DNA of 43,364 bases from Bacteroidales bacterium (GTDB lineage Bacteria; Bacteroidota; Bacteroidia; Bacteroidales; JAADJA01), in contig JAUVJI010000015.1 of NCBI GenBank assembly GCA_030596605.1, forward strand, positions 1 to 43,364. The letters run 5' to 3'. The notes under the pieces were generated by a model. It saw only the letters and a list, made by a program, of their open reading frames with translations, searched no databases and was not told the DNA's origin. Of the stretch, positions 6,914 to 36,079 are shown piece after piece. Numbering within the stretch: position 1 is the first letter of the stretch; each line of letters begins with the position of its first letter. The position numbers and the translations under genes are program-made.

Positions 6914-8821
6914 GTGAGAAATAGGTATCTCTTCTTAATTTTCTTTTTTTTCATTTCTGTCCTTTTTATTAATGCAAAGGTATGGGGTCAAACACCTCAC
7001 GATTTTTCCACTGACATACCAAAAGTAATAGTCCAGAATATTCCGGTAGATATAACTATTACAATACCTTCCTTAATCAGTACTCAGTTAGATACTGTCC
7101 CAGTGAATATTAACGGAAAAAAAATAGAATTGATTTTTGAGAGAGGTGTCGGAAAATTGGAATATAAGTTTACAGAAAAAGAAGAATTAAAAATTGCAAT
7201 CGGAAACACACCCTTTTCCAAAATGATTACTCCGATACCCTTGTGGATGTCGGTCCTACCTCCTTTAATAGCAATTTTGATGGCGTTGGTTTTCAGGGAG
7301 GTTTTCTCTGCACTTTTTATCGGGCTAATGGTTGGTTCGGTAATCATTACATATTACCAGGGTTTTGCTTTTTGGCAGGCTATATTCCTTGGATTATTTT
7401 CCATAATTGATGTGTATATTTTGGAATCACTCAACAATAGCGCTCATTTATCTGTCATCGTTTTTTCAATGATGATAGGGGCAATGGTTGCATTGATTTC
7501 AGAAAATGGCGGAATGAAAGGAATTGTTAATATTTTATCCCGGTATGCCAACAGTCCAAGATCCGGACAGTTTGTAACCTGGCTAATGGGCATTGTAATA
7601 TTTTTTGATGACTATGCCAACACACTGGTTGTTGGAAATACCATGCGTCCTGTAACAGACAGGTTGAAAATATCACGGGAAAAACTAAGTTATATCGTTG
7701 ATTCCACAGCGGCTCCTATTACAGCAATTGCCTTTGTTACAACCTGGATTGGTGCCGAACTTAGCTATATCCAGGATGGGATTAATACAATTGGACTGGA
7801 TGAAACAGCATACGATATATTTTTAAATTCCTTAAAATATTCGTTTTACCCAATCCTGACGCTTTTGTTTGTTTTATTACTTATATACAAAAAGCGGGAA
7901 TTCGGGCCTATGCTGAATGCTGAACGTAAAGCCAGGAGGAATGGAGTTGCTAAAATTCATCCGCAGGTTCATACTGATACGGAAAGTTTTCATACAGATA
8001 AAGAGAAGTGGTATAATGCCGTGATCCCGGTAATTGTTATCATAGCCGGAACGATAATAGGATTGATCAGCACCGGATTAAATAATGTGGATTGGAATTC
8101 TGAAATCGGTTTCCCAAAAAACTTATCCAATGTAATCGGACATGCTGATTCATATAAGGCCTTATTATGGTCTTCTCTTGCAGGCGTATTGGTTGCAGTT
8201 ATATTGACAACATGTCAAAAAATAATGAGCTTGAAACAAAGCGTTGACAGTCTTGTAAAGGGATTTAAAACAATGGTAACAGCTATCCTGATCCTTGTAT
8301 TGGCATGGTCTCTCGCGCTAATCACCCAATATATGCATACTGCTGACTTTATATCGGGAATCCTGTTAGAAATAAATATTACTCCCTATTTAATCCCTTC
8401 CATTACTTTTATTCTGGCAGCGCTTGTTGCTTTTGCAACCGGATCATCCTGGGGCACTATGGCCATTTTATATCCTTTGATATTACCATCTTCCTGGTTA
8501 ATTGCACAGGAATATGGTATGGATTATGACCAGTCGATGGCTATTTTTTACAATGTTGTTTCTACGGTTTTGGCTGGTTCAGTTCTGGGGGATCATTGTT
8601 CACCCATTTCTGATACCACCATTTTGAGTTCATTAGCCAGTTCTTGTAATCATATCGAACATGTTCGAACACAATTACCTTATGCACTTACAGTTGGTTT
8701 GGTCGCTACATTTTTAGGAACCCTGCCCGCTGAATATGGTGTACCTTCATATATACTGTTTGTTGTAAATTTGATTGTTTTATATTTTATTGTGGTGATA
8801 TTTGGGAAAAAAGTTGAATAG
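6914..8821 (+). CDS. NhaC-family Na+/H+ antiporter with an N-terminal exported domain
   Basis: A 635-residue membrane protein. The transport core (about residues 105-635) is of the NhaC/ion-transporter superfamily, with about 11-12 hydrophobic segments and the family-like stretches FFDDYANTLVVGNTMRPV, STAAPITAIAFVTTWIGAEL and VLAGSVLGDHCSPISDTTI. Such proteins exchange Na+ for protons, though some relatives carry organic acids or amino acids. The first 25 residues form a signal-peptide-like segment, followed by about 75 beta-rich residues before the first core helix, an extra module compared with Bacillus-type NhaC. The start is GTG at 6914, 33 bases after rseP. Substrate is inferred from family only. 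Confidence 0.85.
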   Translation: MRNRYLFLIFFFFISVLFINAKVWGQTPHDFSTDIPKVIVQNIPVDITITIPSLISTQLDTVPVNINGKKIELIFERGVGKLEYKFTEKEELKIAIGNTPFSKMITPIPLWMSVLPPLIAILMALVFREVFSALFIGLMVGSVIITYYQGFAFWQAIFLGLFSIIDVYILESLNNSAHLSVIVFSMMIGAMVALISENGGMKGIVNILSRYANSPRSGQFVTWLMGIVIFFDDYANTLVVGNTMRPVTDRLKISREKLSYIVDSTAAPITAIAFVTTWIGAELSYIQDGINTIGLDETAYDIFLNSLKYSFYPILTLLFVLLLIYKKREFGPMLNAERKARRNGVAKIHPQVHTDTESFHTDKEKWYNAVIPVIVIIAGTIIGLISTGLNNVDWNSEIGFPKNLSNVIGHADSYKALLWSSLAGVLVAVILTTCQKIMSLKQSVDSLVKGFKTMVTAILILVLAWSLALITQYMHTADFISGILLEINITPYLIPSITFILAALVAFATGSSWGTMAILYPLILPSSWLIAQEYGMDYDQSMAIFYNVVSTVLAGSVLGDHCSPISDTTILSSLASSCNHIEHVRTQLPYALTVGLVATFLGTLPAEYGVPSYILFVVNLIVLYFIVVIFGKKVE

Positions 8822-32778: not shown

Positions 32779-35007
32779 ATGGATAAAAAAGGATTGGAAA
32801 GAAATTATCAGCTTATTGTGCGACATATTTATAATAATAAATTGAAAGACGCACTGGATGTATTAAAGGGGCTGGTTATACATTCAAGAAAAGGCGATTA
32901 TATTTCACAATATGAGTCATTGGACGATACGTATGAGAATTTATTAAAATATGCTATTGAGGGAATTAATGATCCACAGCGAGAAAAGATATACCAGCAT
33001 ACACGGGTTTCTGTATTGGAACTTGCCGACCTTGCTTTGCAGTATGCATACATGAACGATAGTGATCAATATATTTATCGCCTGAAAAAGAAAATTGAAT
33101 TTGAATCAAAGCAAATTAAAGAAGAGGCCATAAATAGTATTGAGAATTTGGCTTTCGATGAAGAATTATCGGATGTTTTGGAAAGCAGCCTTGAAACGGA
33201 AACCAATAAAAAGGAAGAATATCAAAATCATCAGGAAGTATTGGTCAAAATTTTTAATCTTCTTTGGTTAACCGACAAATTTAAGGATGCTGACCTGAAA
33301 TTGATTAATGCTATTTATGAGGCTAAAAATTTCCCCTGGTATGAACAATCTATCATTATCAGTGCTTTAACCCTTAGTTCATTCAGATGCTTTGACATTA
33401 AGAAAATAGAATTGCTGATTGACTATACATTGAATGAAAATGATCAAATAAAGCAACGGGCCCTGGTAGGGTTATTCCTTAATTTATATATCCATAATAA
33501 AAGAATAAGTTTTTTTCCGGATTTAATAGAGAAAATAAAAACATTAGCAGATTATAATGATATTGAAAAGAATATTGAACTTATTGCGATTCAATTACTA
33601 AAGTCGAAGGAAACAGAAAAAATTACAAAAAAGCTTGAGGAAGAAATCCTTCCGGAGATGGTAAAATACCAACCTATCCTGAAGGATAAATTGGATCTGG
33701 ATAATATTTTATCGAGCGATTACATGGATGATAAAAATCCTGATTGGGAGCGGGTTTTTGAAGATGCTCCGGACCTGCTTGATAAATTACAGGAAATTTC
33801 AAAGCTCCAGATGGAAGGTGCAGATGTATTTATGAGCGCTTTTTCCAGGTTAAAACACTTTGAATTTTTTAATGAAATTACAAACTGGTTCAGGCCTTTT
33901 CATACGGATAATTTTGTTATTAACGAAGTGCTAAATAAGGAAGAAGAAAATTTTAACACCTCACTTTTTCTCGATGGATTATCGAAATCCTTTTTTATGT
34001 GTAATTCAGATAAGTATTCTTTTTGCCTGAATATTCAGTACATGCCTGAGTTGCAGAAAGGTATGATGCTTGAAATGTTTAATGCCGAACTGGAAGGATT
34101 AAGAGAAATTCAGGAGGAAGATGAAATACTGAACAAGTCAACGCGCATTAAAAGCATTTATTCACAATATATCCAGGATCTATACAGATTTTACAAACTG
34201 CATCCTTTGAGAGGTGAGTTCAAGGATATATTTAACCTTAAGCTTGATTTTTATTATTGCGATTTCTTCACGACCCTGGTAAAGGATGATAATATATTGC
34301 GCAATATCGGTGAATTCTTTTTTGAAAAAGATTATTATGAACAAGCCCTCGAAATTTACTTGCTATTGAACAGTAAAGGCGATAATAATCTGGAGATCTT
34401 TGAAAAAATTGGATACAGTTACCAAAAGCTAAAGAATTACAAAGAGGCTTTGAATTTTTATAAAAAAGCAGAACTGTTCGAGGCTAATCGGGCATGGAAT
34501 TTAAAAAAACTGGGACTTTGTAACCGTCACCTGAAAAATTATGAGGTATCATTAAAGTATTATTTAGAGGCTGAAGAAATTGAACCTGATAATCTTTATA
34601 TCCAAACATATATTGGCCATTCATACCTTGACCTGAAGCAATATGAAAATGCACTTAAATATTATTTTAAGGTTGAATTTACAGCTGATGAAAACAGGAA
34701 AGTGCTTCGTCCGATTGCGTGGTGTTCCTTTGTATTAGGAAAGTTTGAAAAAGCCAAAGAATATTTTGAACGCTTAATGGAAAATGAAGCCAACAAATAT
34801 GACTTTATGAATTTAGGTCATGTTGAATGGTGTTTGGGTGACCGGAAAGCAGCGCTTAAAAATTACAAAACTTCAATCAATCGTGAGGATAATAATTTGA
34901 AATCATTTATGGGTAGTTTCGAAGAGGACAAAAAGTATTTGATTCAGTTTGGTATAAAGGAAAGTGAGATAACTTTTATGATCGATTACCTGAAGTATTT
35001 ACTTTAG
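32779..35007 (+). CDS. Large cytoplasmic tetratricopeptide-repeat protein
   Basis: A 742-residue, almost entirely helical protein without signal peptide or membrane segment. Clear TPR units lie at about residues 535-715, for example NLEIFEKIGYSYQKLKNYKE, NLYIQTYIGHSYLDLKQYEN and DFMNLGHVEWCLGDRKAAL. The first 530 residues have diverged alpha-solenoid repeats. TPR proteins act as scaffolds for protein-protein contact. No enzymatic domain is visible and no partner gene is evident, although it may share a message with the small lipoprotein upstream. Function is unknown. Confidence 0.8.
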   Translation: MDKKGLERNYQLIVRHIYNNKLKDALDVLKGLVIHSRKGDYISQYESLDDTYENLLKYAIEGINDPQREKIYQHTRVSVLELADLALQYAYMNDSDQYIYRLKKKIEFESKQIKEEAINSIENLAFDEELSDVLESSLETETNKKEEYQNHQEVLVKIFNLLWLTDKFKDADLKLINAIYEAKNFPWYEQSIIISALTLSSFRCFDIKKIELLIDYTLNENDQIKQRALVGLFLNLYIHNKRISFFPDLIEKIKTLADYNDIEKNIELIAIQLLKSKETEKITKKLEEEILPEMVKYQPILKDKLDLDNILSSDYMDDKNPDWERVFEDAPDLLDKLQEISKLQMEGADVFMSAFSRLKHFEFFNEITNWFRPFHTDNFVINEVLNKEEENFNTSLFLDGLSKSFFMCNSDKYSFCLNIQYMPELQKGMMLEMFNAELEGLREIQEEDEILNKSTRIKSIYSQYIQDLYRFYKLHPLRGEFKDIFNLKLDFYYCDFFTTLVKDDNILRNIGEFFFEKDYYEQALEIYLLLNSKGDNNLEIFEKIGYSYQKLKNYKEALNFYKKAELFEANRAWNLKKLGLCNRHLKNYEVSLKYYLEAEEIEPDNLYIQTYIGHSYLDLKQYENALKYYFKVEFTADENRKVLRPIAWCSFVLGKFEKAKEYFERLMENEANKYDFMNLGHVEWCLGDRKAALKNYKTSINREDNNLKSFMGSFEEDKKYLIQFGIKESEITFMIDYLKYLL

Positions 35008-35035: not shown

Positions 35036-35278
35036 TTAATCGATAACGAAAATCTTTTGTTGTTCAAGTAATTGGTTTCCTGAAAATAAACCAAGAAGAT
35101 AAAATCCCTCACTTATGTTCCCGGTTGGGATAGATATGTTATTTCCCGAATTACCCTGATATTCAAAAGAGCTAACCTTTTTGCCAAGAACATTAAAAAG
35201 TTCTATACGATAATTGCGATCTGCTTGAAAGTTAAAAGAGACATTGATAAAGTAATATTTTTGACCATAAATGCTTTG
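35036..35278 (-). pseudogene. Orphan T9SS sorting-domain-like remnant following the thioredoxin-like gene
   Basis: Eighty codons read on from the TAA at 35279-35281 in the same frame and end at a TAA at 35036-35038. They encode FNFQADRNYRIELFNVLGKK, then a linker, ISEGFYLLGLFSGNQLLEQQ and KIFVID, which is the strand pattern of a type A T9SS sorting domain. There is no start codon or upstream gene of its own, and the usual IYPNP opening is missing. It looks like the 3' end of a lost or swapped gene. It parallels the sorting domain that ends the gene just upstream (INVFDLTGRKV, KQEGFYFVQILENKQIISTN). Confidence 0.6.
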
Positions 35279-36079
35279 TTAGTTTACTTTAATTAGTTTA
35301 TTAGTAGATATAATCTGCTTGTTTTCTAAAATTTGTACAAAGTAAAATCCTTCCTGCTTTCCTGAGAAATCAGCTTTGACAAAATATTTACCGGCCGGGT
35401 AATAAACCGGTTCAAATCCCATTACCTTTCTGCCGGTTAAGTCGAAAACATTGATTTCAATTTCTTTGTCTGAATCAAAGTTCAGGTAGAAATGTGCATA
35501 ATCTTTAACAGGATTAGGGCCAATGGTTAGAATATCATCTTCCTGCTGTGCAACATGAATATCTGTCAAACATGCCTGGGCAATGCCACCTGCATTTGTC
35601 ACACTATCAACTATATTGGTAAATGTAGGTAGCCATACCTGTTTAACTGAAATATATCTGTTCGGTTGAATTACCACTATTGCCGGTGTTGCCTGCAAAT
35701 TATAAAGCAAGTGTACCTGATTACCTCCTCCTTCCTGACCGCTTATACCCGGATATTGAATACCATAAATAGAATCGAAAGCCATTACATCCTCATTGGT
35801 ATTCCCCTTATCTATACCCATAAAAAAGACATTTCCGTCGTTACATCCAAATTCTTCGTAAGCCGCCTGCATATCTGGCGCATACGTCTGGCAAGCACCT
35901 CAATTGGTCGAAAAGAAGTCAATGACTACCATCTGCCCTGCGTCCAAAATGTCAAAAAGTTCGATGGTGTTCCCATAGGTATCCTTAACTGTGAAATTTT
36001 TCGCAGTGTCAAGGGTTGTTTGTGCACTTAAAGCAAAAACAGATATTGAAATAATAACTGTTAATAGAAATTTTTTCAT
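35279..36079 (-). CDS. Secreted thioredoxin-like T9SS cargo with in-frame TGA: candidate selenoprotein
   Basis: Two frames, 36079-35903 and 35899-35279, are in phase and separated only by the TGA at 35902-35900. Joined, they give 266 residues: signal peptide (1-19, FALSAQ), a redoxin/TlpA-like thioredoxin fold (about 25-170), a linker, and a type A T9SS sorting domain (about 183-266, IGPNPVKDY to LIKVN). The TGA is codon 60, in VVIDFFSTN-TGA-GACQTYAPD, exactly where the first Cys of CxxC belongs; Cys63 is the second. The cis-proline is in LQATPAIVVI. A SECIS-like hairpin follows. Read as Sec this is a UxxC redox protein; otherwise it is a nonsense-disrupted or mis-sequenced gene. Confidence 0.7.
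35857..35886 (-). promoter_or_regulatory. SECIS-like stem-loop downstream of the in-frame TGA
   Basis: On the minus strand CGTATGCGCC (35886-35877) pairs with GGCGGCTTACG (35867-35857): CGTA/TACG, one T-T mismatch, GC/GC, one bulged G, then GCC/GGC, with the nine-base loop AGATATGCA. The stem starts 13 bases after the TGA and the loop 23 bases after it, with a G second in the loop. This agrees with the published bacterial SECIS rules as I recall them (loop about 16-37 nt from UGA, G among the first two loop bases). The 43 bases after the TGA contain 26 G or C, far above the surrounding AT-rich sequence. No folding program was run. Confidence 0.55.

Follow-up and report, generated by a model that had tools for sequence, protein, structure and literature searches.

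A candidate thioredoxin-fold selenoprotein bearing a type IX secretion tag in a Bacteroidales lineage

The type IX secretion system (T9SS) is a carrier of proteins to the cell surface. Prx-like thiol:disulfide oxidoreductases of PF00578 with a UxxC motif are described as selenoproteins in two reviews (PMC9312934 and PMC13188914), whose passages cited here mention neither a sorting domain nor export by T9SS; the 2022 review of this pair has no word beginning with Bacteroid or secret in its main text, and the 2026 review none beginning with Bacteroid, secret or sorting in its own. A table of the 2026 review also has a selenobacteriocin (TIGR04081) and a TonB-dependent receptor FCYXU (NF049945), which, to judge from their names, presumably likewise place selenocysteine (Sec) in a protein that leaves the cytoplasm but are other protein types, and for which the cited passages mention no sorting domain. 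For the Bacteroidetes, the cited parts of a 2006 survey report that Sec decoding was not detected (PMC1794560), and those of a 2016 survey report one genome with SelD alone (PMC5029168). Among open-licence papers we found none joining selenoproteins or selenocysteine with type IX secretion, T9SS or the Por secretion system (PMC12016528 and PMC13055991 use selenium and secretion words in unrelated places), and a wider search of the open-licence literature returned no title pointing to exported Bacteroidota selenoproteins. An earlier mention elsewhere is possible, yet this agrees with the original prediction for the locus described here, which held a T9SS-exported selenoprotein of a Bacteroidota to be uncharacterised. 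The UxxC Prx-like catalytic type is known; export of such a selenoprotein by T9SS appears to be new.

We analysed a 43,364-nt stretch of DNA from a Bacteroidales genome, referred to as the window, in which two in-phase open frames had been noted that a single TGA separates, with no other stop over 266 codons. The minus-strand frame at 36079-35279 confirms this: its single internal TGA is codon 60 (35900-35902), its terminator is TAA (35281-35279), and reading through the TGA yields ...VIDFFSTN-U-GACQTYAPD... within a product of 266 residues. We propose that the whole gene (35279-36079, minus strand) encodes an exported thioredoxin-fold selenoprotein, with codon 60 as the presumed selenocysteine at position 1 of a UGAC motif, directly before a helix at residues 61-76. 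Residues 1-19 (MKKFLLTVIISISVFALSA; 36023-36079, minus strand) resemble a signal peptide by eye and include a helix at 2-17 in the AlphaFold2 model. Residues 24-143 (35651-36010, minus strand) are assigned to an AhpC-TSA/ResA-like thioredoxin fold by Pfam (AhpC-TSA, E = 7.9 × 10−14), AlphaFold2 and Foldseek, and residues 188-263 (35291-35518, minus strand) to a T9SS type A C-terminal sorting domain (Por_Secre_tail, E = 4.5 × 10−8), which scored 33.7 bits with PF18962 (cut-off 27) and 32.7 bits with TIGR04183 (cut-off 23). The AlphaFold2 model, built with Cys instead of U, had a mean pLDDT of 84.9 and a pTM of 0.59, with block means of 78-94 across residues 21-140. ResA structures ranked first in a Foldseek search with this model (top E = 1.1 × 10−10, TM by target length 0.89), and a sequence profile also ranked ResA first.

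The protein compares with known families on several sides. It shares with the Prx-like selenoproteins the Pfam family, the UxxC motif and the replacement of the first Cys by Sec, and with ResA (NF002854) and a ResA-like WAxxUGC protein (NF041054) the ResA-like thioredoxin fold. Its score with the ResA model is 44.7 bits against a cut-off of 170, so that it may work like ResA without being filed as ResA; the same model matches all 43 Sec proteins assembled below at E ≤ 0.01, while NF041054 has no match to the window at E ≤ 0.1 and matches two of the 43 (best E = 0.0012). Like T9SS type A cargo (TIGR04183/PF18962), it has a sorting domain above cut-off, a signal-peptide-like start and SprA in its genome, and it differs from such cargo in its predicted selenocysteine.

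The distribution of the TGA among homologues is central to how codon 60 is read. A 92%-identical protein of another genome of the genus (G001) has the same TGA, so the window TGA is not a chance event. Searching 60 related genomes gave 48 homologue matches in 28 genomes, with one TGA in 23 and none in 25 (five of the 48, without a CxxC readable by pattern, were left out of later counts); in an order-wide set of 393 genomes, for each of which the best nine candidates at most were scored, 96 have a match, and 29 matches in 20 genomes carry one TGA among the matches listed. Both searches united yield 43 genes with a TGA, spread over 28 genomes. All 43 have the TGA as the U of UxxC, and the frame continues beyond it in every one; no internal TAA or TAG occurs among the listed matches of either search. 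Column 60 of an alignment of the window subfamily with Cys homologues holds TGA in 10 of 18 rows and a Cys codon in the other 8, placing the window TGA opposite the first Cys of the CxxC of its relatives, as had been predicted. Among 55 further named loci, 42 (L151-L192, with titles naming Bacteroidales, Bacteroidota or Bacteroidetes, Lentimicrobiaceae or Chlorobiota) span the site, where 33 have Cys and 9 have TGA; we judged these nine to be genus members already counted among the 60 relatives.

A nonsense mutation, pseudogene or sequencing error in an ordinary CxxC thioredoxin would be the plainest alternative, as TGC and TGT lie one base away from TGA, the window derives from metagenome-assembled (MAG) data, and the remnant of a second sorting domain just downstream shows that the locus has known decay. 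Relatives carry TGA or Cys at this site with no scattered nonsense mutations; the TGA recurs across the 28 genomes always at position 1 of the redox motif, without TAA or TAG among the listed matches, and is closely linked with SelB among the 60 relatives (below). A base error is very unlikely because separately assembled genomes share the same TGA, which contradicts the mutation or error that the original prediction had kept as an alternative. We rejected both pseudogene and sequencing error on the conservation of the TGA and consider this alternative exceedingly improbable.

The downstream remnant lies at 35040-35278 (minus strand), in frame beyond the TAA of the gene, and is an orphan second sorting domain that probably remains from a tandem paralogue; in three genomes (G002, G006 and G014) an intact Cys paralogue sits directly downstream of the window-gene homologue. 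The other matches listed in the window's own genome span the C-terminal part only, and no Cys back-up copy was seen in the assembly.

We next considered the relation between Sec and Cys forms. When 88 thioredoxin domains, 43 with Sec and 45 with Cys, were placed on a quick tree after masking of the site, at least nine Sec/Cys changes were needed, compared with a shuffled mean of about 29.5, and starred branches alone force four; Sec and Cys have therefore replaced each other on several occasions. The gene neighbouring that of the window protein, at 32779-35007, encodes a TPR protein by our reading, and its tail adjoins the window-gene homologue in 16 of 19 loci tested, in both Sec and Cys forms, and the two forms are therefore orthologues at one locus.

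A genome that decodes UGA as Sec should contain the corresponding machinery, and the search for selA, selB, selC and selD suggested by the original prediction found all of them in one locus of the window's own genome (G000; 4.34 Mb MAG, 87.7% complete, 5.6% contamination). Contig C45 carries, in order, tRNA-Sec, SelA, SelB, a protein that appears YedF-like by sequence, and SelD, with tRNA-Sec (57.8 bits), SelA (532), SelB (327) and SelD (373) all above curated cut-offs. ARAGORN calls the sole tRNA of this locus as tRNA-SeC with anticodon tca. C45 is unlikely to be a stray contaminant because it is 95% identical to G001 DNA across the 4463 nt that they share, the G001 contig stopping inside selB. 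A second SelD match lies at C81:24713-25633 within a 735-residue open frame and is probably a fusion.

Decoding of UGA as another amino acid, through a code change, an opal suppressor or a Cys-inserting tRNA, would account for the Cys that occupies this position in many relatives, and the reading frame would be no different with a UCA tRNA charged with Cys. TGA nevertheless terminates 2 of the 20 long ORFs (≥250 codons) of the window, so TGA has not been reassigned in general, and a homologue in G008 and G016 uses TGA at the redox position and again as its terminator; a global code change was rejected on this use of TGA as a normal stop. The one tRNA of the C45 locus is called as tRNA-SeC and lies beside selA, selB and selD. 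We regard a reading of codon 60 as any other amino acid as very unlikely.

The TGA form of the thioredoxin also follows the Sec machinery across genomes. SelB scored above cut-off in 14 of the 60 relatives, and a TGA homologue is present in 14/14 of these compared with 1/46 of the others (G049; Fisher P = 8.6 × 10−13, ignoring kinship, with 12 of the 14 from one genus). Counting G009 and G007 as Sec-decoding gives 14/16 versus 1/44 (P = 1.0 × 10−10, kinship again ignored). A tRNA-Sec match of at least 56 bits occurs once each in 15 of the 60 relatives, namely the 14 SelB genomes and G009, and ARAGORN returned tRNA-SeC for each of three of these examined (G000, G012 and G009). These 15 were kept from 39 listed matches; the remaining 24, at 44.8-49.6 bits, were set aside and rejected, all being tRNA-Ser by ARAGORN.

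Individual genomes illustrate the association and its exceptions. Three genus members with the Cys form (G003, G006 and G013) gave no SelB above cut-off, no tRNA-Sec and no match to the second family described below. Both G004 and G015 have SelB and hold the Cys form of the window gene together with a TGA form in another copy. A contig of G009 carries tRNA-Sec and selA and breaks off 40 codons into selB, and this genome has the window gene in Cys form only, with no TGA thioredoxin at E ≤ 1 × 10−12. SelB was not found in G007, which has a second-family TGA gene with the same motif and a window-gene copy cut before the site. The exception, G049, has two TGA thioredoxin genes (C37, C184) with no SelB above cut-off and no tRNA-Sec at E ≤ 1 × 10−7; its genus mate G554 has three (C25, C27), and our guess is that the missing SelB and tRNA-Sec of G049 reflect an assembly gap. 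A TGA thioredoxin gene adjoins selD in G004, G015, G565 and G604, and selC in G047 and G552. Around the TGA genes of 13 further genomes, the stretches examined contain selB in G604 and G565, selD with a YedF-like gene in G748 and tRNA-Sec alone in G552, with no sel genes seen in those of the other nine. The G552 tRNA-SeC lies at 8116-8210 (minus strand) of C83 (L270), beside the TGA thioredoxin gene; neither selA nor selB has a match in the 17.5 kb around it. A phylum-wide search of 395 genomes for SelB at E ≤ 1 × 10−70, in which few candidates per genome were scored and which therefore indicates rarity in the sample and not absence, returned the window's own genome only.

We then asked how the UGA might be marked for Sec insertion. 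The window contains a predicted bacterial SECIS hairpin at 35857-35886 (minus strand), with arms at 35877-35886 and 35857-35867 and a 9-nt loop at 35868-35876 (AGATATGCA); it has nine pairs, a 23-nt spacer from the TGA to the loop and a G at loop position 2. These features fit the bacterial SECIS model as given in the cited passage of PMC13188914, which specifies a loop of 3-9 nt located 16-37 nt past the UGA, a G as first or second loop nucleotide and an upper stem of 4-16 bp. Taken alone, the window hairpin is no better than synonymous shuffles of its sequence (P = 0.40), and the support for a SECIS element comes from the family. All 10 members of the window subfamily share the hairpin design, loop G included, and ten pairs are formed in 96% of alignment cells; equivalent positions in eight Cys homologues pair in 60%, and RNAalifold on these homologues gave no structure. 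Double changes in the subfamily number two cells in two pairs, equalled by 10 of 500 shuffles; in one of them, an Ala-to-Val substitution faces a synonymous change across the stem. A separate clade of the thioredoxin tree, also comprising 10 Sec genes, has changes on both sides in 6 of 11 pairs, and its covariation score was reached by 0 of 500 shuffles, for a structure derived from four members of that clade and thus favouring it; two of its genes adjoin selD.

Across the whole family, the free energy after the codon relative to synonymous shuffles had a mean z of −1.56 in 43 Sec genes and −0.11 in 45 Cys genes (Mann-Whitney P = 9 × 10−8, with codon-shuffle nulls that ignore kinship); this comparison left out 17 named loci judged duplicates, L193-L195, L196-L205 and one repeated G049 gene. 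Stems of at least 7 bp separate the forms weakly (36/43 Sec versus 27/45 Cys, P = 0.018). A minimum-energy test found a G at loop position 1 or 2 in 11 of the 43 Sec genes, and either the loop G or the loop itself absent in 32; for 7 genes, no 3-10 nt loop lay within the 16-37 nt range. Covariation supports predicted hairpins in the Sec genes and not in the Cys homologues.

At E ≤ 0.01, TIGR04183 matches 42 and PF18962 41 of the 43 Sec proteins, so that the Sec thioredoxins of this set carry an export tag as a rule. Among T9SS components we looked for SprA, which is present at full length in the window's genome (2611 bits), and sorting domain and SprA together uphold the T9SS tag that had been predicted, with a surface location as the likely consequence. 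SprA matches fall on three contigs of this genome (C42, C146 and C90; one full, two partial), which is perhaps a sign of a mixed bin. A selenoprotein whose sorting domain goes unused, acting in the periplasm as a ResA/TlpA-like enzyme, would fit the nearest solved structures, which are those of ResA, an enzyme that acts at the outer side of the inner membrane. Against such a placement stand the near-universal TIGR04183 match, the SprA of the genome, the C-terminal domain, which is kept in the aligned Cys members too, and the PKD domains whose models match 23/43 Sec proteins; we consider it unlikely.

On this evidence the window gene very probably encodes an exported selenoprotein, and we place the probability of the full reading, a selenoprotein exported by T9SS, at roughly 90%. 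The sel locus, the conserved TGA, the link with SelB and the SECIS signal of the family all argue, at the level of sequence, for the Sec reading put forward in the original prediction. In this reading, tRNA-Sec and SelB would insert selenocysteine at UGA codon 60 under the direction of a SECIS hairpin that lies inside the coding region, 14-43 nt past the UGA, and the product would have a U-x-x-C active site in a thioredoxin fold like that of ResA. Its putative signal peptide would bring it into the periplasm via Sec, and its type A C-terminal domain would then commit it to the type IX secretion system for delivery to the cell surface or the medium. Outside the cell it would most likely be a selenol/thiol-disulfide oxidoreductase; fold and motif point to a putative thiol- or selenol-disulfide oxidoreductase of the ResA/TlpA/Prx-like kind. 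For its substrate reaction, we give about even odds to disulfide exchange with other exported proteins or small thiols, and less to peroxide reduction.

The UGA could in principle be a selenium switch, yielding a 59-residue product under selenium scarcity and the full enzyme under a plentiful supply, the switching itself being the function. UGA recoding competes with termination, according to the cited passage of PMC4513850, and the assembly of the window's genome has no visible Cys back-up copy, both of which would suit a switch. The 59-residue product would nevertheless be without most of the thioredoxin fold, and the sequence seems to give no pointer to a role for it, making the switch extremely unlikely as the function.

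The window thioredoxin may not be the only candidate of this kind in its genome. Directly upstream of selC on C45, a plus-strand frame of 598 codons (L082, 1034-2827) has one TGA at codon 344 in the context STMGCFCVSUGLTPPG, and its product carries a T9SS type A domain at residues 515-595 (TIGR04183 38.2 bits, cut-off 23; PF18962 just below cut-off). This second family, with the motif GCFCxxUGxTPPG, occurs in 14 of the 60 relatives with exactly one TGA each, at an identical position in 16/16 copies (these 14 and two more in G565), and in 13 genomes the gene precedes selA within the sel locus. At E ≤ 1 × 10−30, all matches among the 60 relatives came from the genus and none was a Cys form; neither Pfam nor NCBIfam models cover the TGA and its surroundings at E ≤ 0.01, and the AlphaFold2 model is weak (pLDDT 68). 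The family is unrelated to the window thioredoxin and likewise joins a T9SS tag to a conserved TGA.

Taken together, the two families suggest a coupling between Sec decoding and type IX secretion in this Bacteroidales lineage. We lean slightly towards the broader view that several families of the order hold an exported selenoproteome, in which T9SS cargo (the UxxC thioredoxin and the GCFCxxUGxTPPG family) is linked to the Sec machinery and Sec on the outer surface is the rule and not the exception. Related bacteria keep the arrangement, and a little-known group of exported selenium proteins thereby becomes visible; annotation that ends at the TGA would split such surface enzymes into two fragments. 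If the reading is true, it becomes testable how a reactive selenol survives export, which extracellular target is reduced or oxidised, and where the electrons come from. A compact arrangement of these genes is seen in G565, where positions 1074-16633 of C18 (L279) hold selC, selA, selB, a YedF-like gene, selD, a Sec thioredoxin, the two second-family copies and a second selB.
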